This document shows, one piece after another, positions 9,061 to 51,238 of a stretch of 64,000 nucleotides of DNA; the stretch's first letter is position 1; each line of letters starts with the position of its first letter. Made by a program: the position numbers and the translations under genes. The notes below the pieces were generated by a model. That model did not search any database and was not told the DNA's origin. It saw only the letters and a program-made list of their open reading frames with translations. The DNA is from Planctomycetota bacterium. GTDB lineage: Bacteria > Planctomycetota > Phycisphaerae > Phycisphaerales > Phycisphaeraceae. The stretch is from the NCBI GenBank assembly GCA_026386955.1, contig JAPLMQ010000304.1:1-64000 (forward strand). Direction: 5' to 3'.

Positions 9061-9306
9061 GGTGCCACATGCCATCGTATTCGTGGCATGTGCCAGTCGA
9101 CCGGAGGCGCCGCGGTTTCGGGGCGTTTGGGACCACGTCCACTGGCGGAAACGGAGAGCAATCCCTCGCGAACCTTGGCTCAACTGTTCACTCGCACATA
9201 GCAGCCTTCGGCTGCGATGTGGCACGCCCTTGGAAATTCGCGGAGTCGCAACAGGGCCTCACGGCTTCCCAAGACACATGCCACGAGTACGCTGGCATGT
9301 GGCACC
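9061..9306. repeat. REPIN-like element, copy A (inverted pair of hairpins)
   Basis: Left hairpin about 9065-9091 and right hairpin 9275-9301, each with arms CACATGCCA and TGGCATGTG around a 9-nt loop. The outer ends read GGTGC and GCACC, so the whole 246-bp unit is an inverted pair. It sits between wecG-like and Wzc-like genes and encodes no protein. The transposase expected to move such elements (a RAYT-type TnpA) is not in the window. Confidence 0.8.
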
Positions 9307-16149: not shown

Positions 16150-16327
16150 GGTGCCACATGCCATCGTACCCGTGGCATGTGTCGGTGAACGGACGTCCCA
16201 GCACCTCGCGACGGCCTCTTCACGCCATCGCGAAACGCGTGGTTTCATGGCGTTTGAGCAGATTTGTGCGTCGCGGAGTGAACGACTTCCCAAGACACAT
16301 GCCACGAATACGATGGCATGTGGCACC
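16150..16327. repeat. REPIN-like element, copy B
   Basis: Hairpins at 16155-16181 and 16296-16322 in inverted orientation, with outer ends GGTGC and GCACC; total 178 bp. Arms are of the CATGCCA/TGGCATG subtype. The element ends 14 bp from the stop of the polymerase gene. It occupies most of the gene-free stretch 15951-16340. A diverged copy of the ACCGCCTGAA repeat lies near 16070-16095. Confidence 0.8.
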
Positions 16328-26563: not shown

Positions 26564-26590
26564 TTGTTAGCCGGAAGCGCAAGCGACGGG
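26564..26590. repeat. GCCGGACGCGCAAGCGACGG-type repeat, copy 1
   Basis: Reads TTGTTAGCCGGAAGCGCAAG followed by CGACGGG. Other copies lie at 36017, 36099, 40563 and 49633. It lies in the gap just after the stop of the lyase-like gene. Confidence 0.7.
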
Positions 26591-27375: not shown

Positions 27376-27407
27376 CACATGTCACGAGAACGATGACATG
27401 TGGCACC
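27376..27407. repeat. Single hairpin of the REPIN-like family (TCA/TGA subtype)
   Basis: Arms CACATGTCA (27376-27384) and TGACATGTG (27394-27402) around CGAGAACGA, then GCACC. It lies between two convergent genes. Confidence 0.8.
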
Positions 27408-36016: not shown

Positions 36017-36129
36017 TTGTTAGCCGGACGCACAAGCGACGGAGGTTGGTTCGCCTGAAACAACGGACATCACCCGAAGCTTGCGAAGGGCCATGACAAA
36101 CCTCCGTCGCTTGCGCGTCCGGCTAACAA
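36017..36129. repeat. Inverted pair of GCCGGACGCGCAAGCGACGG-type repeats
   Basis: Two 31-bp arms, 36017-36047 and 36099-36129, are reverse complements with one mismatch, separated by 51 bp. Each arm reads TTGTTAGCCGGACGC(A/G)CAAGC then GACGGAGGTT. The region 35997-36275 otherwise holds no gene. Confidence 0.8.
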
Positions 36130-36163: not shown

Positions 36164-36195
36164 CACATGCCACGAGTACGATGGCATGTGGCACC
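36164..36195. repeat. Single hairpin of the REPIN-like family (CCA/TGG subtype)
   Basis: Arms CACATGCCA (36164-36172) and TGGCATGTG (36182-36190) around CGAGTACGA, then GCACC. Confidence 0.8.
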
Positions 36196-36275: not shown

Positions 36276-37580
36276 TCACCGCGGCGCGTCGAACGCCTGC
36301 GGCTGGAACCCCGGCAAGTCCGCGGGGTCGATCGCGAAGACGTAGATCCGGCTCGGCTGGGCCGCGAGGAAGTCGTTGTCGACCGTGACGATCAGCAGAT
36401 GCCGCCCGTCGGGCAGGTCGGGGCCGAAGGCGAGGCCCTCGATCTTCTCGGGGAACGTCGGGCCCGCGAGGCCGTGGCGCGGGTCGAGCAGGTCGATGAA
36501 CGGCCCCTTCTTCGCGGCGACGATCCCCTCCGGCAGCTTGCCCTCGGGCAGCGAGGCAACCTTGCCCACGTCGCTCGCGCCGGCGGTATCGACCGTGATG
36601 ATCCGCTTGAAGGATGCCTTCGCACCGATCTTGCTGTCGCGCTCGATGGCGAGGAACTCGTGGTCGTTGACCGCCAACAGTTCGTTGAAGTTGTTCGCGG
36701 CGTCGTCGAGCGGGCAGACGATCTGCCGCGTCGCCCCACCCGATTTGGCGTCGAGCTCCAACAGTCGGCAATTCACGCCCGCCGTGCCGTGGTCCTGCAA
36801 CAGCGGCTGCTGCAGCAGGGCGAAAAGCTTGCTCCCGTCGGGCGAGATCGCCAATCCCTCGAAGCCCTTGTTGGCCATGCGCCCGGAATCGTTCAGCGCG
36901 ATCTCCTCCTTCTTGTCGGCCGCGGGCTTCTTGATCGAGAAGATCGCGGGGACCGAGAGCACGCGCGTCCGCTTCCCCTCGGGCGAGAACTCCAGCACGA
37001 ATGGCCCGTACTCATCGGCGATGAAGAGGCCACCCGTGCGATTGACGCGGATGCCCTCGGGGTCGAGCCGAAGACCGGCCGGGGAGTTGCTGGCGTCGAA
37101 TGCCGAGGAGATCCCGACAAAGTTCTCGCCCTTCTCGTTGACCAGCATCGTGGTCGCGACGAGCTTGATCGTCACCGCGTGGGCCACGTCGGCCTTGGGA
37201 TCTGCGTCGATGTTCACGTCGATGTCGAACATCTGCACGCGGCACTTGTAGGCGACCTCGCCGTTGGCCGGCCCGCGGTCTGCGGCGGCGATGTAGCGGT
37301 GCCCGCGCCCCGTGTAGGCGATCGCCGAGCCGAAGCTGCCCAGCCGGTTGTGCGGCGTGCCGTCGGGCAGCGTGTCGGTCAGGCCCGAGAGGTCGGCCGC
37401 CATCGCGGGGAGGCTGGCGACGCCGACGAGCTTGACCTCAGCCTCGACGCCCGCGCCGGCCCCGGGCAGGATCAGCGCGAGGTAGCAGAGGCCGACCAGG
37501 GCCAGGCCGGGGCGCGAGGAGCGCACCGGTTGCGCGGGTCTCACGTGCTTGGCGACGAGGGGGGAAGGTTCAGTTCGCAT
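36276..37580 (-). CDS. Secreted phytase-like (esterase-like activity of phytase) domain protein
   Basis: The product is about 434 residues. A hydrophobic segment ([18 protein letters not shown]) near residue 28 is a likely signal peptide or anchor. The rest fits the phytase-like beta-propeller: [72 protein letters not shown], and [24 protein letters not shown]. The start ATG at 37580 lies inside the last codons of the upstream prepilin gene (11-nt overlap), so it is probably translated from that mRNA. These proteins are thought to hydrolyse phosphate esters, but activity is not assured by sequence. Confidence 0.83.
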
Positions 37581-38733
37581 TGACGGCCCAAGGGCTCCAG
37601 ATGATCGTGCCGGCGCGGTTGAAGTCGGTGGCGCCGATGCCCGAGCCGGTCGGCGTGCCCGAGCCGGAGGGGACGCTCGGGCCATAGACGGTGGTGTTGA
37701 GCGCGGGGTTGGCGTTGACCAGCGTGCCGCGGGTGACGGTCATGTAGTCCATCCGGCGGGCGCTGCCGTCGGCCATCGAGACGTTGCCGCCCGCGTCGTG
37801 CCGGTAGGCGAAGTTGGCCCAGTAGCCCTTGCAGCGGTTGACCGCGACATCAGCATAGGTGCCGTAGGCGGGCGTGGGGTTGGCGAGCAGCTCGGAGGCG
37901 GGCAGCTCGTTCTTGCAGGAGCGCCCCTCGGTGAAGAGCACGGTCTTGGAGACGTCGCCGGGGATCTCGCCGTGGGCGAAGTTCTGGTTGTTCAGGTCGC
38001 CCGCGCCGCCCGAGATGGCGATGCCGTAGGGGTTCTGGTCGAGGTTGGCGGTGGTCAGCCCGGGGATGCCCTTGGAGGAGCCGCCCGTGCCGCGGTTGAG
38101 TTTGGAGTTGATCATGTAGTTGCTGTAGAAGCCGACGTTGGTGGTCTGCGCCGCCTGCGTGATGGGGTTGTAGTAGTTCCTGTTCGTCGTGGGGAGGAAG
38201 GGCGGCTTGGGGGCGTTGTTGACCGTGCTGGTGGAGACGGGCCGCTGGGCCGAGGGGCAGACCCAGGGCGAGTTGGTGCGCGGCGCGACGGGCAGGCCGG
38301 AGTTGCCCTGCGTGAAGACCATTTCGCGGTAGGACATCCCGTTGGAGATGTATTTGCCCACGGCGTTGGGCCACCAGACGTCCTGGTTGAAGGCGTTCTG
38401 GTAAGAGCTGGAGGTGCCCCCGCCGACGGTGCTCACGCCGTCGTTGAGCGTGTCGACCGTGCCGGAGAAGAGGTCGGGCCCGTCCCAGGGGAAGTTCTGG
38501 GAGTTGTCGGTGAGGTAGGTCGACATGGCCAGGCCCCACTGGCGCATGACGTTGAGGCAGGTGACGCCGCGGGCGGTGTCGCGGGCCTTGCCCATAGCGG
38601 GCAGGAGGATGCCCACGAGCAGGGCGATGATCGAGACGACCACGAGCAGCTCGATGAGGGTGAAGCCGTCCGCGCGCCGCGCGCGGCAACGACTCGGGCG
38701 GGCATCGCAGGAGGACAAGTGCGGAAGATCCAT
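37570..38733 (-). CDS. Prepilin-type protein with H-X9-DG motif
   Basis: The product is 387 residues. The prepilin cleavage and methylation signal is [14 protein letters not shown] with cleavage between Gly and Phe and the conserved Glu at +5; a hydrophobic helix follows. Near the C-terminus [13 protein letters not shown] contains the exact H-X9-DG signature found in planctomycete pseudopilin-like proteins. The middle is Asn/Thr/Gly-rich, typical of the exported globular domain. The ATG at 38733 has GGAG 8 nt upstream; upstream in-frame codons run through repeat DNA. The partner peptidase and secretion genes are not in the window. Confidence 0.9.
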
Positions 38734-39246
38734 GCTGAGGTCTCCAAAGGGTGAACGAAGGAAGGATGTATGCGAGGGGGGAGTCGGGCCGCGGTCCGTG
38801 CGGCCAAGGTGGGGAGGGACGAACAGCGTTGGCGAAGGCCGCGTCCACGCGGTCGGCCAAGCGACGAGCAGGATGATGCCAGCGCCGCGCTGGGGGTTTC
38901 TTAGGGTGTGGTTAAATCTGGGTGAATCGCGCGGGGAGATGAGGGCGCGATTCGCGGGGCGTGAGGAATCGGCGCGAAGTCCAAGGCGGCCGACTCTGGT
39001 GCCACATGTCATCGTACCCGTGACATGTGTCTTGGAATGACGTGCAGCGCACATCCGTCAGAAGGCTTGGAGCCCTCTTTGATCACCGGCATTCCATGAT
39101 CGTGCGACGAGGTCGCCGCAAGGCCGTGAGCCGTCCGCTGACCGGCACATGTCACGAGTACGATGACATGTGGCACCAGACAATGCGGCTTTCCGACGTC
39201 GAGGGCTTTCGCGCGCTTCGACGACGCGACGCAGCCCACCCCGCCT
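38734..39246. other. Gene-free upstream region of the prepilin gene
   Basis: Besides the REPIN-like element at 38998-39177, no gene or clear promoter was found. The segment 38880-38960 is lower in GC and may contain the prepilin promoter. Confidence 0.4.
38998..39177. repeat. REPIN-like element, copy C (TCA/TGA subtype)
   Basis: Hairpins at 39003-39029 and 39146-39172 in inverted orientation with outer ends GGTGC and GCACC. Both hairpins use CATGTCA/TGACATG arms, so the two halves of one element match in subtype, unlike copies A and B which use CCA/TGG. Confidence 0.8.
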
Positions 39247-40562: not shown

Positions 40563-40592
40563 TTGTCTGCCGGACGCGCAAGCGGCGGCGAG
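40563..40592. repeat. GCCGGACGCGCAAGCGACGG-type repeat, diverged copy
   Basis: Reads TTGTCTGCCGGACGCGCAAG followed by CGGCGGCGAG. Variant TCTGCC in place of TAGCC is shared with the copy at 49633-49661. Confidence 0.65.
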
Positions 40593-40665: not shown

Positions 40666-41592
40666 TCACTGTAACGGCGCGAGGTCAGTCATCCGGAAAT
40701 AGAACCAGCACTCGCGGCCTTGCGCCTTGGACGTCGAGAGCACGCGTTGGATGTTGCCGCGAAGCTTGATGGTTTGGCCGGGCTTGAGGGCCTTGCATCG
40801 TTTCGCGGTGGCTTCGTCGACCTTCCAAGACAGGCGTTCGGTTGGAATCAGACTGTGGTAACGATCCTTGGCGGTAGTGAGGTAATGTCTCGTGTTGAAG
40901 AAATGCGCTGCGACGTGAGTTGTCGCAAACTCAAACTCGATGGGCTGGTGCCAGACTTGGACTTCCCACAGTTCGCTTGGCGAACTGTTGCCTACTGGCT
41001 TGATGTTCTTGACCTCGGTCTTCGTAACCACGATCGACAGGTCAACTTTGGCACCAAGCATGTTTGCATTCATCCATTCAAAGGACTTCTCCAACACCTC
41101 ATCGGTCCACCCCATCTTCGGCGAAGGCCTCACATCCGCTGGCAACGTCTGCAACAACGTCACGAGATTGGTGTACGGCATCCGCGGCGCATCGGCCGCG
41201 GCGGGAGGCGAGGCCGGAGCGTCCGCCGCCTTCTCCGGCGCCGGCTTGATCGGCCCCAACTTCTCCGCCCGCATCGCCTCGGCCTCGGTCGGCGGGGCAT
41301 AGGCCCGCAGCCGGCGCACCTCGCTCTCGAGCTTCTCGATCCGCGCCAGTGCGTTCGCCAAGTTCTCCCTCAGCTCCGCGTTGAGCCGCATCGAATCCGC
41401 GGCCGCCTTGCGAAGCGCGGCCGGGTCGAGCTTCTCCAAGTCGCGCGGTTCCGAGCCGGTCGCCGGCGCGGCGGGCTGCGTCGCCTGTCCGCGGGCGTCG
41501 GCGGGGAACATTGTCGACGCGAACAAGGTCGACACGGCAACGATTGTCGCCGACACGAGGCGAGCGAGTGAACGACGCGAGCGCGATGTCAT
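40666..41592 (-). CDS. Secreted or periplasmic coiled-coil protein of unknown function
   Basis: The product is about 308 residues. A hydrophobic leader (LVSATIVAVSTLFASTMFPADA) looks like a signal peptide. A coiled coil follows at about residues 55-105 (LRKAAADSMRLNAELRENLANALARIEKLESEVRRLRAY), then an Ala/Pro-rich linker and a globular C-terminal domain of about 170 residues (MGWTDEVLEKSFEWMNANMLGAKV, LRGNIQRVLST). No family is recognised. The start is uncertain: ATG 41592 has GGGGG upstream; ATG 41607 is also possible. The C-terminal part has lower GC than its neighbours, which may hint at transfer. Confidence 0.7.
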   Translation of the reverse strand: MTSRSRRSLARLVSATIVAVSTLFASTMFPADARGQATQPAAPATGSEPRDLEKLDPAALRKAAADSMRLNAELRENLANALARIEKLESEVRRLRAYAPPTEAEAMRAEKLGPIKPAPEKAADAPASPPAAADAPRMPYTNLVTLLQTLPADVRPSPKMGWTDEVLEKSFEWMNANMLGAKVDLSIVVTKTEVKNIKPVGNSSPSELWEVQVWHQPIEFEFATTHVAAHFFNTRHYLTTAKDRYHSLIPTERLSWKVDEATAKRCKALKPGQTIKLRGNIQRVLSTSKAQGRECWFYFRMTDLAPLQ

Positions 41593-41757: not shown

Positions 41758-41789
41758 CACATGTCACGAGTACGATGACATGTGGCACC
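41758..41789. repeat. Single hairpin of the REPIN-like family (TCA/TGA subtype)
   Basis: Arms CACATGTCA (41758-41766) and TGACATGTG (41776-41784) around CGAGTACGA, then GCACC. A partial half-unit, CGTGGCACCC, lies 40 bp upstream near 41715, consistent with a decayed inverted pair. Confidence 0.78.
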
Positions 41790-42375: not shown

Positions 42376-43488
42376 TCAGAAATCCCCGACGGCGGCGTAG
42401 GCCCACTTGGTCTGGTTGGGGCACTTGAAGGTCCAGGTGGTGGGCGTGGGCGAGAGGGGCGTGGCGTAGACGCCGCCGGCGTTGACCTTGCCGTAGGGGG
42501 AGACCGGCCCGCTGACCCATCTCACCGAGCCGTCGTAGAAGCCCATGTGCCCGCCGGCGCAGTCGAGGACGCTGCCGATCCAGAGCCGGTCGCAGGGGTT
42601 GGCGGTGAGGGGCTGGACGGAGTTGTTGGGCCAGTTGACGCCTCCGCCGGGGTTCCAGGGTCCGCGGCCGACGACCTGGCCGACTTGGAGCCAGGGGGCG
42701 GAGCCGTTGTTGGAGGTGAGGGAGGCGGCGCCGGGTGTGCGGTGGGCGTAGCCGTAGCCGAGGTAGTGGGTGGAGTCGGCGCCGGCGATGTTGGCGTCCT
42801 TGCCGATGATGATGTCGCCGATCATGGCGTGGGTGGGCTTGGCGGAGTCGATGCGGCCCGGGGGCGGGTCGAAGGGGGAGTAGCCTTGGGCGGCGCCGGC
42901 GGAGGTGAGGTACTTGCCGCCCTCGAAGTAGAGGCCGTAGGGGCTGCACATCCAGGCGTCGCCGTTGGGCCAATAGTTGGTGTAGGAGACGCCAGTGGTG
43001 ATGTCGATCTGCGCGGAGCCGCCGTTGCTGCCGGAGTTGTTGGCGAGGGTGGGCAGGCTGGTGTCTCCCAAGCAGGACTTCTCCCAGGAGGGCGTGCCCA
43101 TGCAGGGATGGGCGGTGAGGCCGATGTTGCCGTAGTTGAACATGGCGTTGTAGACCACGTCGTCGACGCCCTTGGTGAACCCGCCGGAGTTGGCATAGCC
43201 GCCGAGCCCGGTGGTGCCGGGGAGGAAGGAGCAGAAGGTGTTGGGGAACTCGCTGCTGGGGCGGCGACGGTGCGGGACGTATTGGACATTGTCCGCGGCG
43301 TAGTTGGTCACGGAGACGATCATGCCGCGCGTGTTCGCCATCTCTTGGGTCTTGCGGGCCTCCTCGCGGGCGTTGTCCATCACGGGCAGGAGGACGGCGA
43401 CGAGGACGGCGACGATCGCGATGACCACCAGCAACTCGATGAGCGTGAAGCCGTGGCGAGCGGAAGACGAGGCATGCAACTTACCCAT
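42376..43488 (-). CDS. Prepilin-type N-terminal cleavage/methylation protein
   Basis: The product is 370 residues. [27 protein letters not shown] is preceded by a short basic leader, giving the Gly-Phe cleavage site and conserved Glu. The exported domain is rich in Gly, Asn and Thr and contains four to six cysteines ([24 protein letters not shown]), suggesting disulfides. A shortened version of the H-X9-DG motif may be [14 protein letters not shown], where His and DG are only four residues apart. It forms a two-gene unit with the membrane protein at 41811. It is similar in type but not closely in sequence to the product of 37570-38733. Confidence 0.88.
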
Positions 43489-43963: not shown

Positions 43964-44010
43964 CAAGCCCACTGATCGTGACGGGAGTACCGTCGGGATC
44001 AGTGGGCTTG
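43964..44010 (-). terminator. Long hairpin overlapping the stop of the GT2-P450 gene
   Basis: Arms CAAGCCCACTGATC (43964-43977) and its complement (43997-44010) pair perfectly, and an inner GACGG/CCGTC stem continues it to a 5-nt loop. The gene's TGA (44001-43999) lies in one arm. No T run follows, so termination may need a protein factor, or the hairpin may protect the 3' end. Confidence 0.6.
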
Positions 44011-46377
44011 GGCGCTGGCGTTGTCGTGAGGATTCGCGCGGCGGGCGAGCCGCACATACAGATGCCCCGCGCGCGGCTGCGAGGAGAAGAGGTTGGGCAT
44101 CTCGATCTCGGGGCGCGGGCCGGGGCCGGCCTCCAGTCGCCAGCGCGACACGATCATCGTGATCGCCAGCATCATCTCCATCCGCGCGAAGTACTCCCCG
44201 ATGCAGACCCGCGGCCCCATGCCGAAGGGGATCATCGCGTCCGCCGGCCAAGTCGGCGGGCCGGCGAAGCGGTCGGGGTCGAAACGCTCGGGATCGGGGA
44301 AGAACCGCGCGTCGTGCTGGAACAAACGCGGGCTGACCATCACCTCCTCGCCCTTGCGCACGCGCACGCCCGAGGGCAGGCGGTCGTCGACCAACGCCCG
44401 GCGGGTGAGCAGCGGTTCGCTGGGGTAGAGGCGTAGCACTTCGTCGACGACCCGCCCGGTGAGCGGCAGGCGGGCGAGGTCCTCCGGCGTGATGGAGCGC
44501 CCGCCCCAGACGGAGGCAGCCTCGACGGCGAGCGCGTCCTGCACGTCGGGGCGCTCGGCGAGCAGCTGCGCGGCCCAGGAGAGCACGACCGCGACGGGCT
44601 CGAAGCCCGCGGTGAAAAGCGTCATGAGGCGGTCGCGCATCGCGGCGGCGGTGGGCGGGCCCGGCTCGGCCCACCCGCGCAGCATCAGCGAGAGCATGTC
44701 GTCGCCCGACTGCTTGCCGTCGGGCGGTCCGGACTTGTCCGCCTGGGACGCACGCGCCGTGGCCCGCGAGACCCACGGATCGAGCCACGCATCGATCTCG
44801 CGCAGGAGGCGCTTCGCCATTCGCCTCCGCTTGATCGGCAGCCAGCGCGGTACGGGGGGCCAGCGCTTCAGCTCGCGGGCGGCGCATTGATGGCTCATGC
44901 GCACCAGTTCGACCAGCTCGGCGGCCTTGGTGGAGTCTCTGCAGTCGAAGACCGCGGCAGAGGAGACGTCGCCCGTCATCCACTTGAACTCGATCGCCGC
45001 GTCGAACCTCTCGGAAGGCGACCACGAGGCCACGCGCCGCCCGATGATGTCGATCATCAGCGGGGCGTAGCCTTGGACCGAGCGCTTCTGCAGGGTGGGC
45101 TGGACCACGCGCCGGTGGGTCGGGTGGGCCGGGCGCTGCATGCCGATCATCCCGCCCGCGAGGAGCGAGAAGGCCATCAGGATGCCCGATTTCATGTAGT
45201 TGCGGTCGTTGGCGACCAGGACGTGGCGGGCGTCGGCGGGCTCGCGCAGGAGGTAGGTCCGCCGTTGGAGGCGAAGGAGCGCCGCGGCGCGGTCGTGCCG
45301 GTTCGCCGCGTCGAGGAAGCCGACCGGATCGGCCCAGATCGCACGCTGATGGCCCCACAACACATTCGCGGGCAGCGCCGCCACCGGACCTTCGGGCCTT
45401 CGCAGCAACGAGCGAGCCGCGCTGCCCAGGGCCCGCCTGAGATGCCGCAGGCTCATCATTGACGATGGCTCAGCCCGGACCGCCGCCGCGTAGCTCCGCC
45501 ACGCCGGCCCATGCCATCCCGCGCGGAAATAGGCACGGGCACGCTCTCGCTCGATGAAGGCGACAAAGCTCCGGCGATGCACTAGCACCTGGGGCGGGAG
45601 CACCGCGGGGTCGAAGAGCACGTCGGCGAGTCGCAGTCCCGAGCGGTGGATCGAGGCGATGTTGTCTCGCAGTCGCCCGGGATGGTCGTGGACCTCGAGG
45701 GTGACGAAGTCGACTCGGGCAACAGGGTGGAGCATCGCGAGGGCGACGACGGCGCGGTCCATCCCATGCGGGTATTCAAAGCCCGCGGGGCGATCGAACG
45801 GGGCGAGGAGCGCGCGGTCGATCAGTCCGCCGGAGATGCACACCGACCAACGTCCACGGACGAGGCCGGCAAAGCGCTCCAGGGGGTCTGCGGGAAGCGC
45901 GGGCGGGAACCACGGGCGCGAAGTCTCGCGGCCTTGTTCGTCGACGCTGTGGTTCCCGCCCATGACGAAGCGGACGTGCGGCTGGTCGTCGGCGGCAGCA
46001 CGGAGGGCGGCGAGCGCGCCGGGGCGAAGGCGGTCGTCGGCTCCGACGAAGACTGCCCAGCGCCCGTGCATGGCGTGGTACGCCTCGCGGCATGCGTCGA
46101 ATGGACCGGCGTGCTCCTGACGGATGTAGCGCACGTGCGGGGCGTATCCGGCGACGATGGCGCGGGTGTCGTCGGTCGAGCCGTCGTCGACAACGATGAT
46201 CTCGAAGTCGTCGCCGTCCTGAGCGAGGATGGAATCGATTCCGCGTGCGAGATAGCGCCCGTAGTTGTAGGTGGCGACGATGAACGTGAAGCGCGGCGGG
46301 GGCGGCGCGGCGTTCGTCGTCGGTGGGAGAGGCGTGACTCGATCGTCGGAGGCGCCATCGGGGCGGACGGGAGGCAT
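43999..46377 (-). CDS. Fusion of glycosyltransferase family 2 and cytochrome P450
   Basis: A continuous 792-codon frame. Residues 28-300 are a GT-A domain: FTFIVATYNYGRYL, EIIVVDDGSTDDT (DDG 64-66) and FVGADDRL. Residues about 335-785 are a P450: VGFLDAANRHDRAA and RRTYLLREPADARHVLVAN (N-terminal sheet), HRRVVQPTLQ (helix C), EVLR as the ExxR of helix K (646-649), FFPDPERFDPDRF, and the haem loop FGMGPRVCIG with ligand C725. The helix I motif reads TAGFEPVAV, with Pro where most P450s have the conserved Thr. There is no membrane anchor and no redox partner gene nearby. A family 4 glycosyltransferase gene precedes it. The enzyme may hydroxylate a lipid or glycan intermediate and glycosylate it (inference). 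No Shine-Dalgarno site is visible; the 211-bp gap upstream holds nothing recognisable. Confidence 0.9.
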   Translation of the reverse strand: MPPVRPDGASDDRVTPLPPTTNAAPPPPRFTFIVATYNYGRYLARGIDSILAQDGDDFEIIVVDDGSTDDTRAIVAGYAPHVRYIRQEHAGPFDACREAYHAMHGRWAVFVGADDRLRPGALAALRAAADDQPHVRFVMGGNHSVDEQGRETSRPWFPPALPADPLERFAGLVRGRWSVCISGGLIDRALLAPFDRPAGFEYPHGMDRAVVALAMLHPVARVDFVTLEVHDHPGRLRDNIASIHRSGLRLADVLFDPAVLPPQVLVHRRSFVAFIERERARAYFRAGWHGPAWRSYAAAVRAEPSSMMSLRHLRRALGSAARSLLRRPEGPVAALPANVLWGHQRAIWADPVGFLDAANRHDRAAALLRLQRRTYLLREPADARHVLVANDRNYMKSGILMAFSLLAGGMIGMQRPAHPTHRRVVQPTLQKRSVQGYAPLMIDIIGRRVASWSPSERFDAAIEFKWMTGDVSSAAVFDCRDSTKAAELVELVRMSHQCAARELKRWPPVPRWLPIKRRRMAKRLLREIDAWLDPWVSRATARASQADKSGPPDGKQSGDDMLSLMLRGWAEPGPPTAAAMRDRLMTLFTAGFEPVAVVLSWAAQLLAERPDVQDALAVEAASVWGGRSITPEDLARLPLTGRVVDEVLRLYPSEPLLTRRALVDDRLPSGVRVRKGEEVMVSPRLFQHDARFFPDPERFDPDRFAGPPTWPADAMIPFGMGPRVCIGEYFARMEMMLAITMIVSRWRLEAGPGPRPEIEMPNLFSSQPRAGHLYVRLARRANPHDNASAQAH

Positions 46378-46588: not shown

Positions 46589-47875
46589 TCAGATCATGTC
46601 GGGTGAGGGCGTGCGCAGCGCGCTCTCGAGCCGGTCGACATTGAGCGACAGGGAGAATTCTTGCTCGACGCGCAGTCGCCCCGCGTGGCCGATGCGGCTC
46701 CGCTCGGCGGGGTTGGCGGCGAGCCAGGCGAGCCGGTCGGCCAGGGCCTTGGGGTCGGTGCCGTCGACGAGCAGGCCGTTGACGCCGTCGTCGATCAGCT
46801 CGCGGATGGCGGGAAGATTTCCGCTCAGGGCGGGGACTCCGCAGGCCATCGCCTCCATGAGGACGACAGGGATGCCGTCGCGGTCGCCGCGCGAGTCCTC
46901 CTTGCAGGGAAGCGCGAAGACGTCGGTCTTGGCGAGGAGCCCGGGGACCTTTTCGTTGTCGACCGCGCCGAGCCAGGTGATCGCCGCGTCGCACTTGAGC
47001 TCGCGGGCGAGCGCCTCGAGGCTCTGGCGGTACGGGCCGTCGCCCGCGATGGTCAAGCGCCAGTCGACGCTCCCGGCCGCGCCCGTGCCGCCCGTCGCGA
47101 TCCCGCGGAGCAAGGCCAAGGCGCGGATCAGCGTGTCGACGCCCTTCTTCTCGACCAAGCGGCAGAGCGTGAGGATCTGCATCGTCGAGGCCGAGCCGTT
47201 GGCGTGCCTGACCGACTCCGTCCACGCGGAGACGTCGACGCCGCAGCGGATCACGCGGTAGGCGTCGGCCGCGCCCGCGCCGGGCGCGCCTTGGACCTCC
47301 TGATAGAACGAGCGGTGCCACGCGCTGATGCACGAGACGAAGCTCGCCCGCGCGAGCTTTGTCTTCAGGATCGACCGGCGCTGGAAGATGTCGTTGGCGT
47401 GCCCGGTGAAACTGAAGGGGACCCGCATCTGCCGGGCGGCGTACATGCCCAAGGTCGTCGGAGCGTGGGCGAAATGGCAATGGATGTGGTCGACGCCGAT
47501 CGAGCGCAGCCGTTTCGCCAAGCCCAGCGCGGCGAAGGCCTGCATCGGCAGCTTGAGGCGCGAGGAGGGCGTCAGGGGCTCGTCCGGAGCGAGCGCGTCG
47601 CCGACGGCGGCGGCGAACGTCTGGAGCGCGCGGACCGGATGCGCCGCGGCCTCGGCCAGCGACCGACCCACCATGCCAAGCCCGCCGGGGTCGTAGACAA
47701 CCGTCAGGTCCTGGTAGAGGTCCGACAGCCCGGCGATGGCGGTTTCGCGCGGCGCGTGGAGGCTCACCGCATGCACCGTCCAGCCCCGACGGCGCAGCTC
47801 GCGCACTTCGCGGTAGACGAACGTCTCGCTCCGTGACGGGAATTCCCCTGCGATGTATGCGAGTGTTCGTCCCAT
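46589..47875 (-). CDS. Glycosyltransferase family 4
   Basis: The product is about 428 residues. The N-terminal domain reads LAYIAGEFPSRSETFVYREV; HCHFAHAPTTLGMYA and FSFTGHANDIFQ are typical of colanic-acid-type enzymes. The C-terminal donor domain has LCRLVEKKGVDTLIRAL, DGIPVVLMEAMACGVPAL (E-x7-E region) and LIDDGVNGLLV. The ATG at 47875 is preferred because the homologous region starts there; an ATG further upstream (47983) adds a low-complexity leader. It is the likely first gene of a small unit with the GT2-P450 fusion. Sugar specificity is unknown. Confidence 0.87.
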   Translation of the reverse strand: MGRTLAYIAGEFPSRSETFVYREVRELRRRGWTVHAVSLHAPRETAIAGLSDLYQDLTVVYDPGGLGMVGRSLAEAAAHPVRALQTFAAAVGDALAPDEPLTPSSRLKLPMQAFAALGLAKRLRSIGVDHIHCHFAHAPTTLGMYAARQMRVPFSFTGHANDIFQRRSILKTKLARASFVSCISAWHRSFYQEVQGAPGAGAADAYRVIRCGVDVSAWTESVRHANGSASTMQILTLCRLVEKKGVDTLIRALALLRGIATGGTGAAGSVDWRLTIAGDGPYRQSLEALARELKCDAAITWLGAVDNEKVPGLLAKTDVFALPCKEDSRGDRDGIPVVLMEAMACGVPALSGNLPAIRELIDDGVNGLLVDGTDPKALADRLAWLAANPAERSRIGHAGRLRVEQEFSLSLNVDRLESALRTPSPDMI

Positions 47876-48349
47876 GCCCAGCGCTTGTCCCGTTCCCGGT
47901 CCGTCCACCCGCGTCCCGCCTCGCGGGGCCCGCGTCATTCGTTCGGTCGACTCGTCTTCCAGCCCTTCACCCGGCCCCGTCATCGGCTAAGAGAGCCGCC
48001 CGAGTCATGTCGGATGGACGCCCCCAAAACGGCTCATTGCGGCATCGCGCGGCGGCGCTTGCCGCCGTGCGTCACGCCGGGCTTTGTCGCATCTGATGGC
48101 TTTATTCCGCGGTCTTTCAGAATACCTTACGTCAGGTGGCGGGCAAGCACGTCCGCACCGGCGAACCGCCGGCCTATTCCTATTCATACCGATCGGCGAC
48201 TTTGGCAAACCACCCAAATTGCCCAATCGCTTTTTTTCTGACAGGAATGGACCACAGCGCCCACCGGGGCGCTTGGGCCAGAATTATTGGACGTGCTTGT
48301 CCGCAACGTGTTGGCCCGAGACACATTCGGGCCGCGACGGGCGCGACGG
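47876..48349. other. Gene-free region between the dioxygenase and glycosyltransferase genes
   Basis: The part 48095-48290 has lower GC, with CGCTTTTTTTCTG near 48228-48240, which may include the promoter of the glycosyltransferase unit or an A/T-rich terminator remnant of the plus strand. No gene or repeat was recognised. Confidence 0.4.
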
Positions 48350-49129
48350 TCAGCCGCCAGTCTTTCCCTCGCGCGCGCCGGCAGGGAGATCGACCCACAA
48401 TTCCGGCCTGCTGAAGTACGCTTTCTTGCGGAACTCCTCCGCCATGACGACGTCGCCCCCGACCCAGAAGGTCGCGTACGCGCGGCGCCAGCGGTCGGAC
48501 TCGTTGGGCCCCGAGCAGTGCAGCGCGTTGCCGTGGTGGAGGACCACGCCGCCCTTGCGGATCGGCGCCAGGGCCTCGCGCGAGAGGTCGAGCAGCTTCG
48601 CGTCGGGCGTGAGGTCGTGCTCGCGCCCGGGGACGGGGGCGATGGGGAGCAGCGGGCCGAGGTGGGAGCCCTCGATGTAGCGGAGGCAGCCGTTGGCCGC
48701 GTCGGAGTCGTCGAAGGCGATCCAGGCGTTGAGCACGTGCCCCGCGGGGACGCCTTGGAAGTAGTGGTTGTCCTGGTGGTACGGCTTGGCGCTGCCGTGG
48801 CGGGGCGGCTTGAAGAAGATCTCGTCGTCCATCAGCAGGGGCGGGACGCCGATGAGCTGGCGCACGAGGCTGGGCACGGCGCTGGCGAAGATCATTTGCC
48901 GGAAATAGGCGTTGCGCCCGAAGACGTTCACCAGCTTGCGCGGGAGCCTCTCGCGCCCGTCGGGCGAGCGGTCCGCCAAGGCCACGCTGGCGTCGGGCCC
49001 GATCAGCCGGTCGGCCATCGCCATCGCCTCGCGGATGGCCTGATCGGCCTGGGCGGGGGTGAAGACGCCCTCGATCGCGACCCAGCCGCGCTCCCAGTAG
49101 TGGTCGAATTGGCTCTTCGTCACTTTCAT
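48350..49129 (-). CDS. Phytanoyl-CoA dioxygenase-family (Fe/2-oxoglutarate) protein
   Basis: The product is 259 residues. The iron-binding HxD is in KPYHQDNHYF, the distal His is in LHHGNALHCSGPN, and an Arg (RRAY) about 10 residues later would hold 2-oxoglutarate. AGGAG lies 8 nt before the ATG at 49129. It is the last gene of a minus-strand set: SDR, SDR, cupin, dioxygenase. The set may oxidise a small molecule such as a sugar acid or halogen-free natural product; the substrate is unknown. It is only distantly similar to the tandem dioxygenases at 57286 and 58213. Confidence 0.87.
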   Translation of the reverse strand: MKVTKSQFDHYWERGWVAIEGVFTPAQADQAIREAMAMADRLIGPDASVALADRSPDGRERLPRKLVNVFGRNAYFRQMIFASAVPSLVRQLIGVPPLLMDDEIFFKPPRHGSAKPYHQDNHYFQGVPAGHVLNAWIAFDDSDAANGCLRYIEGSHLGPLLPIAPVPGREHDLTPDAKLLDLSREALAPIRKGGVVLHHGNALHCSGPNESDRWRRAYATFWVGGDVVMAEEFRKKAYFSRPELWVDLPAGAREGKTGG

Positions 49130-49173
49130 CGCGTGATCTCCTGCGCGTGCGCGAGATGCCCGGCCCGATTCGA

Positions 49174-49596
49174 TCACGGATTCGGCGGCGAGGTGCAGAT
49201 CAGCACCACCATCGTCTCGCGCCCCGTGTTCTCGATCCCGTGCAGGCACCAAGGCGGTAGGTAGACGAAGTCGCCTTTCTTCACCTCGCGCTTCCCGCCC
49301 TGGAACGTCATCGTCCCCGCGCCCTCGAGGATGACGTACGTCTCCTCCGTCTCGTGGTTGCCCGGCTCGAGCACGACGTGGGGCGGGATGTAGAACAGCA
49401 CGAGCCCCATGTTCTTCGAGGGGGCCTTGGGGTTGACGGGGTGGACAACGCGGACGCCCACGCCGTGGCACCCGGGGTACGACACCGGCACGCCGTCCTG
49501 CACGTTGACGATCATCGGGTCGGGCGGGACCGCGGGGCGCGGGATCGTCGGCGGCTTGCCGTCGGTGTAGCCCTTGAATTGGGTGATCTTGGCCAT
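49174..49596 (-). CDS. Single-domain cupin protein
   Basis: The 140-residue product has a cupin_2 core: GNHETEETYVILEGAGTMTF supplies the first motif and FVYLPPWCLHGIENTG the second with its histidine. The ATG at 49596 has GGAG 5 nt upstream. Metal ligands appear to be Glu, Glu and His rather than the full His-His-Glu-His set, so metal binding is uncertain. It lies 44 bp before the dioxygenase gene. Likely an isomerase, sensor or dioxygenase in the same pathway. Confidence 0.87.
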   Translation of the reverse strand: MAKITQFKGYTDGKPPTIPRPAVPPDPMIVNVQDGVPVSYPGCHGVGVRVVHPVNPKAPSKNMGLVLFYIPPHVVLEPGNHETEETYVILEGAGTMTFQGGKREVKKGDFVYLPPWCLHGIENTGRETMVVLICTSPPNP

Positions 49597-49632
49597 GGGG
49601 TCTCCGTTGGAGTTGGCGGAAAGGGCGAAAAC

Positions 49633-49661
49633 ATCCGTCGCTTGCGCGTCCGGCAGACAAG
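49633..49661. repeat. GCCGGACGCGCAAGCGACGG-type repeat, reverse orientation
   Basis: Reads ATCCGTCGCTTGCGCGTCCG then GCAGACAAGA; it sits in the short gap between the cupin and SDR genes, inside an apparent operon. Confidence 0.68.
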
Positions 49662-49670
49662 ACAGCGTCC

Positions 49671-50468
49671 TCAGAAATCCCGGAAATACCCCGCGGTCCA
49701 ACCGCCGTCGACGGCGAGCGTCTGCCCGGTGATGTAGCTGCTCTCGGGGGCGGCGAGAAACAGCACGGCGTGGGCGATCTCCTCGCACGAGCCGGGCCTG
49801 CTCAGCGGGATGTGGGCGAGGAGGCACTCCATCTTGTCGTTGAACTGCCCGCCCTTGTCGTAGAAGAGCTGCTTGGTGCCCTCGGTGAGGATCGACCCGG
49901 GCGCGACGCAGTTGACCAGCACGCCGCGCCCGCCGAGCTCGATCGCCATCGCGCGGGTGAGGTTGACCACGCCCGCCTTCGCCGCGGTGAAGGCGCACTG
50001 CAGCCGCGCGGGGACGAGCCCCATCACCGAGCCGATGTTGATGATCTTCCCGCGCCCCTGCGTGACCATGACGCCCGCCGCGGCCTTGCTCACGAGGTAG
50101 AGCCCGGTGAGGTCGACCTGCAGGATGCGGTCCCACTCCTCCTTGGGGAATTGCTCGACAGTGACGCGGTGGGCGGAGGTGTTGACGCCCGCGTTGTTGA
50201 CCACGATGTCGAGCCGGCCGTGGCGGGCGACGACGCCGGCGACCGCGGCGTTGACCGCGGCCTCGTTGGTGACGTCGAGGCGGGCCGATTCGGCGCGGCC
50301 CGCGGCGTGGCCAGGCGACTGCGCCGCCGCCTCGCGCGCGGTGGCCTCGTCGATGTCGGTGTAGACCACCGTCGCGCCGTTGCTCGCCAGCGCGTCGGCG
50401 ATGGCGCGTCCGATGTGCCTTCCCGCGCCGGTCACCAGCGCCACGTTGCCATTGAGGTCGACCTTCAT
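49671..50468 (-). CDS. Short-chain dehydrogenase with Phe in place of the catalytic Tyr
   Basis: The product is 265 residues. The cofactor motif is VTGAGRHIG, then VNNAG; the catalytic Ser is in INIGSVMG. Where the family has Y-x-x-x-K, this protein reads FTAAK (in LQCAFTAAKAGVVNL). The Phe is encoded by TTC and would need one change from a Tyr codon. Without Tyr, normal proton relay is lost, so activity may be reduced, altered or absent. The C-terminus (SSYITGQTLAVDGG) is typical. ATGA overlap with the preceding SDR indicates coupling. A sequence error cannot be excluded. Confidence 0.88.
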   Translation of the reverse strand: MKVDLNGNVALVTGAGRHIGRAIADALASNGATVVYTDIDEATAREAAAQSPGHAAGRAESARLDVTNEAAVNAAVAGVVARHGRLDIVVNNAGVNTSAHRVTVEQFPKEEWDRILQVDLTGLYLVSKAAAGVMVTQGRGKIINIGSVMGLVPARLQCAFTAAKAGVVNLTRAMAIELGGRGVLVNCVAPGSILTEGTKQLFYDKGGQFNDKMECLLAHIPLSRPGSCEEIAHAVLFLAAPESSYITGQTLAVDGGWTAGYFRDF

Positions 50469-51238
50469 CGCGACAACCATCCCCCGTCGACGACCAGCGA
50501 TTGGCCGTGGACGTAGTTCGACGCCTCGCTCGCGAGGAAGACCGCCGCGCCGACGAGCTCCTCCGGTTTCCCCGCGCGCCCCGCGGGGATGCGGGCCATG
50601 ATCGCCGGGCCGCGCACCGGGTCGGTCAGCACGGGCACCGCCATCGCCGTCGCGAAATAGCCCGGCGCGATGGCGTTGACGTTCACCCCGCGTGGGGCCC
50701 ACTCGTTCGCGAGCGCCTTCACCATCCCCAACACGGCATGCTTCCCCGCGGCATACGCGGGCACCATCAGCCCGCCTTCGAAGCCCAGCACGCTGGAGAT
50801 GAAGATGATCTTCCCGTGCCGCCGCGCGAGCATGCCCCCGGCCCCCCCCACCACCTGCTGCGCGAGGTCGAACCCCGCGTTGACGTGCAGCTCCAGCACC
50901 TCGCGGAAGCGCGCGAGCGGGAAGTTCTCCGCCGGCTCGCGGTGCTGCTGCCCGGCCGCGTGGACCAAGATGTCGACGGGGCCGAGTTTCTGCGCGACCT
51001 TCGCGACCAGCCCCGCGCGGGCGCGCTCATCGATCAGGTCGACGCCGAAGAACTCATGCGCGAAGGCCGGGCCGTCGTTGGCGTCGACCGCCCCGCGGGC
51101 CGCGACGGCGACCCTCGCCCCCGCCCCGGCCAACCCCGCGGCGATCGCCCTGCCCAGCCCGCGCGAGCCGCCCGTCACCAGCGCCACCCGCCCGGCGAGA
51201 TCGAAGAGCTTGAGCGTGGATGGGGATGGATCACTCAT
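50465..51238 (-). CDS. Short-chain dehydrogenase (sugar-acid dehydrogenase-like)
   Basis: The product is 257 residues. It has VTGGSRGLG (cofactor), HAAGQQ in the place of the NNAG motif, ISSVLG with the catalytic Ser, and YAAGK with the catalytic Tyr-Lys pair. The C-terminal SNYVHGQSLVVDGGW is characteristic of gluconate 5-dehydrogenase/KduD-type members. Its C-terminal stop overlaps the next gene's ATG. It probably begins the four-gene operon. The plus-strand polyphosphate kinase gene is divergent from it, with a 220-bp gap between them. Confidence 0.88.
   Translation of the reverse strand: MSDPSPSTLKLFDLAGRVALVTGGSRGLGRAIAAGLAGAGARVAVAARGAVDANDGPAFAHEFFGVDLIDERARAGLVAKVAQKLGPVDILVHAAGQQHREPAENFPLARFREVLELHVNAGFDLAQQVVGGAGGMLARRHGKIIFISSVLGFEGGLMVPAYAAGKHAVLGMVKALANEWAPRGVNVNAIAPGYFATAMAVPVLTDPVRGPAIMARIPAGRAGKPEELVGAAVFLASEASNYVHGQSLVVDGGWLSR

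Follow-up and report, generated by a model that had tools for sequence, protein, structure and literature searches.

The locus considered here raises the question of whether a planctomycete bacterium makes a family 2 glycosyltransferase (GT2) and a cytochrome P450 as one protein and, if so, how such a gene arose and what its product might do. The locus lies in a stretch of 64,000 nucleotides at the start of contig JAPLMQ010000304.1, here referred to as the window. An earlier note on this DNA had described an uninterrupted frame of 792 codons joining the two domains, and this is confirmed, on the minus strand. The frame runs from an ATG at 46377 to a stop ending at 43999 and encodes 792 amino acids without an internal stop; across this interval the plus strand contains stops in frame. 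A search of the literature for a GT2-P450 fusion found no report of one.

The fused gene and its junction

The features of the gene, all on the minus strand, are as follows.

43999..46377, minus strand: GT2-P450 fusion gene, 792 codons plus stop (open reading frame, translation, Pfam)
45403..46377, minus strand: GT2 half, residues 1-325, with the Pfam core at 32-149 and a conserved C-terminal part to about residue 315 (Pfam, alignment)
46180..46188, minus strand: GT-A motif D64-D65-G66, predicted to bind the nucleotide sugar (sequence; conserved in relatives)
46033..46044, minus strand: G112-A113-D114-D115, predicted DXD-type metal site, DADD in both relatives (sequence, alignment)
45343..45432, minus strand: junction, residues 316-345, the end of the basic GT C-terminal helix and the linker (alignment, composition, AlphaFold2 model)
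45382..45384, minus strand: possible internal GTG start of the P450 half, a relic or still used, preceded by GAAGG (putative, sequence only)
43999..45342, minus strand: P450 half, residues 346-792, Pfam core 362-768 (Pfam, structure and sequence relatives)
44596..44610, minus strand: I-helix segment A590-G-F-E-P594, the conserved Thr replaced by Pro (alignment)
44431..44442, minus strand: ExxR motif, E646-R649 (sequence, alignment)
44203..44205, minus strand: predicted heme-ligand Cys725, within FGMGPRVCIG at residues 718-727 (sequence, alignment)

Two Pfam domains are recognized above their gathering cut-offs in the one frame, PF00535 at residues 32-149 (E 2.3e-25, 89.9 bits, cut-off 23.3) and PF00067 at residues 362-768 (E 3e-57, 194.8 bits, cut-off 22.8). 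The former, together with the DDG and DXD-type motifs, places the N-terminal half in family GT2, and both GT-A motifs described earlier (DDG, GADD) are present. The best partial matches of this half to GT2 families come from polysaccharide pathways (EpsD, PglI and TuaG).

The junction, which had been placed near position 45,390, falls within the linker at about residue 330. GC contents at codon positions 1, 2 and 3 are 0.71, 0.64 and 0.80 for residues 281-360, and the coding periodicity is unbroken across the junction. GC at third positions (GC3) is 0.82 in the GT half (45400-46377) and rises to 0.92 in the P450 half, within the range of 0.90-0.98 seen in most genes nearby; this step at the domain boundary fits a two-gene origin. 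The gene at 40666-41556 (0.80) is the only one as low in GC3 as the GT half. An AlphaFold2 model built from few sequences (overall pLDDT 58) is confident for the GT half only. It has a helix at residues 304-325, which carries the basic C-terminal stretch of the GT, MMSLRHLRRALGSAARSLLRR, and is confident at its start only; residues 326-336 lack secondary structure, and confidence is below 50 from residue 310 onward, including the linker.

Unfused pairs in related genomes

Among the 101 genomes nearest to that of the window, both halves are present in two others, designated G026 and G063, which belong to the same taxonomic order. Here the GT2 and the P450 are encoded by separate, adjacent genes in the gene order of the window, with 36-37% identity to the window protein over both halves, and these are the nearest relatives found. 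The two genes overlap by 4 nt in G026 (ATGA, with AGGGGG just upstream) and by 26 nt in G063, and the GT tail and P450 head are together longer than the junction segment of the window protein. The relative phase of the P450 is the same in either overlap, and one frame-changing, stop-removing indel would therefore fuse the genes. The comparison points to the fusion of an old, translationally coupled GT2-P450 pair. Separate genes in close relatives had been named in the earlier note as grounds for rejecting the fusion; those found here are in relatives of only 36-37% identity and represent the unfused precursor state, not an assembly error.

The trees of the two halves match. In a P450 tree of 35 planctomycete sequences the window protein, G026 and G063 form one clade (100/99), and in a GT2 tree of 34 sequences the same three form one clade together with a GT2 from genome G619 (100/95). 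In both trees G026 is sister to G063 with the window outside, contrary to the taxonomy, which places the window in one family with G026. Such agreement between trees that conflict with taxonomy is as expected from co-transfer of the pair or from co-retention of old copies. With adjacent halves and joint clades, G026 and G063 have the features of a conserved GT2-P450 module.

The search for further examples covered the families of the window (51 genomes), of G063 (9) and of G619 (163), together with 400 genomes sampled from the order, about 400 from the class and about 390 from the phylum. Neither a second fusion nor a further pair was found in these, and no second fusion appeared in 1528 genome searches, in which many genomes were covered repeatedly; the distribution is therefore very patchy. 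No frame other than that of the window matched both halves. Long stop-to-stop frames containing P450s in three genomes (G866, G740 and G839) were considered as possible fusions and rejected, as gene calling separates them. Wherever gene calling was possible, GT2 relatives within family f51 lacked an adjacent P450. In G619, whose GT2 of the clade sits at a contig edge, a search of the whole genome found no P450. Back-translated protein patterns gave no close relatives in genome contigs or viral contigs, and a profile scan of genome contigs returned general GT2 proteins, except for one from a Phycisphaeraceae metagenome-assembled genome (TGS_PLA6, contig JAHCJH010000167.1) that has the same sequence as the G619 GT2 and stops at the contig end. 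In a plasmid collection no record covered 80% of the query, the best matches being P450s alone.

Gene neighbourhood and repeats

The window gene is flanked by GT4 and pseudopilin-like genes, the first of these being:

46589..47875, minus strand: upstream GT4 glycosyltransferase gene, EpsE-like, 211 nt before the fusion (Pfam, family models)

A longer start at 47983 is possible for the GT4 gene, which scores 198.9 bits against the EpsE model (cut-off 400). The pair in G063 has genes for ParA and a VanZ-MurJ protein upstream, and that in G026 has a C25-type peptidase gene as neighbour. With different neighbours at each of the three loci, it is the pair alone that is conserved. The glycosyltransferase neighbourhood proposed earlier is thus reduced to the one GT4 gene, which is absent beside the pair in G026 and G063 and is probably a neighbour of the fusion without being a conserved one.

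Upstream of the GT4 gene, genes for a PhyH-type dioxygenase, a cupin and two SDR proteins (48350-51238, minus strand) may form a separate small-molecule catabolic operon. Two genes for pseudopilin-like proteins, both with an N-terminal methylation motif, lie downstream of the fusion (37570-38733 and 42376-43488, minus strand) and share a 101-nt stretch (38569-38669 and 43354-43454) that is 81% identical.

The window also contains two interspersed repeats. The REP-like imperfect palindrome CACATGTCANNNGTACGATGACATGTG occurs nine times (9066-9092, 9275-9301, 16155-16181, 16296-16322, 27376-27402, 36164-36190, 39003-39029, 39146-39172 and 41758-41784), with no copies expected, and frequently as inverted pairs with a spacing of about 142 nt; the genome has 219 copies at two or fewer mismatches and none of the reversed control. 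The second, CCGTCGCTTGCGCGTCCGGCAGACAA, occurs five times (26564-26589, 36017-36042, 36104-36129, 40563-40588 and 49635-49660), again with none expected.

Is the fusion made in the cell?

The fused state is known from a single draft genome of 316 contigs, and it is conceivable that no fusion protein exists in the cell, either because a consensus error erased a stop codon or because an internal start yields a separate P450. At 45384 an in-frame GTG preceded by GAAGG lies where the P450s of the relatives start, and the rise in GC3 at the domain boundary would also suit two genes; Shine-Dalgarno sequences are irregular among the genes of the window. The earlier note had regarded an assembly error near 45,390 as what would overturn the fusion. 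A single-base indel was rejected on frame grounds: past the conserved C-terminus of the GT, one alternative frame (+1) first stops at 45194 and the other (+2) below 44900. Such an error would therefore imply a GT-P450 overlap of about 190 nt or more, unlike the short overlaps of the relatives. Substitution errors are rare in consensus sequences, the coding signal runs on through the linker, and use of an internal start would yield an extra product alongside the fusion. The absence of a fusion protein is accordingly judged very improbable, and the sequence evidence indicates a fusion that is real and unusual, joining two ordinary enzyme families with a conserved unfused pair behind it.

The P450 half

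The C-terminal half has the marks of the P450 superfamily, namely the PF00067 match, the heme-thiolate Cys within FxxGxRxCxG and the ExxR motif, all conserved in the relatives. The description of a complete-looking P450 therefore holds for ExxR, FxxGxRxCxG and C725, which are intact, but not for the I helix, where the acid-alcohol pair (Asp/Glu-Thr) of canonical monooxygenases is broken: Glu593 is kept and Pro594 replaces the Thr. In 18 other planctomycete P450s this column is Thr in 17 and Ser in one, never Pro. Against the same 18 sequences, three changes are common to all three GT2-linked P450s (T594P, W418H and P653S), that is, I-helix Thr to Pro, C-helix Trp to His and the second Pro after ExxRL to Ser; all three retain the heme Cys, ExxR and the C-helix Arg as well as the I-helix Glu. 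Given the change from Thr to Pro, ordinary monooxygenase chemistry should not be assumed. The I helix also lacks the conserved Thr (ASYEV) in a P450 at 933-2318 of a contig classed as viral (IMGVR_UViG_3300031576_000948).

The window P450 departs further from near-universal positions (F429L, G363R and Y715M) and has a branch length of 1.34 in the P450 tree, against 0.31 and 0.71, so its activity could be altered. That the lineage has diverged for long with neither stops nor loss of heme motifs argues for selection on the product.

Named P450 families match weakly. The nearest named or solved families by sequence include the CYP170-type (albaflavenone) and CYP97-type enzymes, and P450-BM3 is also a recognizable relative among solved structures; the score of about 163 bits against the albaflavenone oxygenase model (cut-off 700) makes no case for membership. 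CYP102 (P450-BM3) and CYP116B enzymes are likewise natural fusions, although their partners are reductase domains, whereas the window P450 has a GT on its N-terminal side. A domain search of the fusion protein found GT2 and P450 only and no reductase domain, and the protein does not qualify as a self-sufficient P450. No dedicated ferredoxin or reductase gene lies beside the fusion at the locus, a search of the genome gave no Fer4_15 ferredoxin, and the one Fer2 match in the genome is inside a 489-residue frame.

A parallel to the altered I helix is found in the CYP152 peroxygenases (P450-BSβ and OleTJE), in which Pro occupies the Thr position and the neighbouring acid is lost to Arg (PMC3937522). 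These fatty-acid enzymes share the Pro with the window P450 but have Arg-Pro in place of Glu593-Pro594. Membership of CYP152 was rejected on this difference and on a score of 19 bits (cut-off 600). With the acid retained but Pro in place of the Thr that helps to split O2, the way in which oxygen is activated probably departs in part from the canonical one and may be peroxide-driven or use another proton route.

Proposed function and competing explanations

In two other genomes the genes are adjacent and overlap, which supports a functional link between the domains, and it is reasonable to infer, as the earlier note suggested, that one substrate may be both oxidized and glycosylated. We give an even chance to a bifunctional enzyme, derived from the older coupled pair, in which the P450 oxidizes and the GT2 glycosylates the same molecule. 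In such an enzyme the P450 domain would bind heme through Cys725 and oxidize its substrate, a small hydrophobic or lipid-linked molecule; a sugar would then be moved by the GT-A domain from a nucleotide sugar onto this molecule, most simply onto the newly installed oxygen. Fusion would hold the intermediate local and supply both activities in equal amount. The carotenoid or lipid carrier proposed earlier as substrate has no direct support. More speculatively, the basic C-terminal stretch of the modelled GT could touch the membrane, and such contact, in a protein that lacks strong transmembrane segments, would suit a lipid substrate at the membrane surface.

Instead of serving as an oxidase, the P450 half could activate the GT half structurally or allosterically, in the way that EryCII acts on EryCIII and DesVIII on DesVII. 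EryCIII and DesVII belong to family GT1, and the GT here is a GT2 with a GT-A fold, which counts against the parallel. P450-fold partners of glycosyltransferases are nevertheless already known, in the form of P450-derived activators of the EryCII/DesVIII type that have lost the heme Cys (PMC3391682). The loss of the I-helix Thr and C-helix Trp would fit such a role, as would weak matches of the G026 and G063 proteins (38.1 and 32.1 bits) to the NCBIfam model for these activators, TIGR04515 (cut-off 343), which the window protein does not match. Membership of this family was rejected, Cys725 being present and the scores below the cut-off. EryCII and DesVIII are also separate proteins, whereas the window protein is one chain. 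It is chiefly the intact heme Cys, retained with ExxR and the C-helix Arg in all three GT-linked P450s, that makes an activator role quite unlikely. Somewhat similar doubt attaches to the idea that the domains have different molecules as substrates while serving one pathway or cell structure (an exopolysaccharide or glycolipid, for example), the fusion fixing only their ratio. The EpsE-like GT4 upstream and the EpsD, PglI and TuaG matches of the GT2 speak for it; the GT4 neighbour is not conserved, however, and the GT2-P450 pair alone is, and we consider the idea unlikely.

The preferred reading remains an enzyme that couples oxidation to glycosylation on one substrate. A bolder version of it, which is possible though doubtful, is an undescribed planctomycete two-enzyme module in which a heme P450 with a Glu-Pro I helix and non-standard oxygen activation would hand its product directly to a GT2, giving a glycosylated molecule not known elsewhere among bacteria.

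Significance

When two activities are joined in one natural protein, this is strong evidence that they belong together. The fusion considered here ties an oxidase to a GT2 in organisms that have very few P450s (PF00067 matches number one in the genome of the window, one in G026 and three in G063) and offers a direct handle on the pathway; where the P450 is the only one detected, as in G026 and the window's genome, a knock-out or a spectral assay would give an unambiguous answer. A specific, testable prediction on oxygen activation follows from the change from Thr to Pro that the paired P450s have in common. If active, the protein would provide enzyme engineering with a ready-made scaffold for oxidation and glycosylation.
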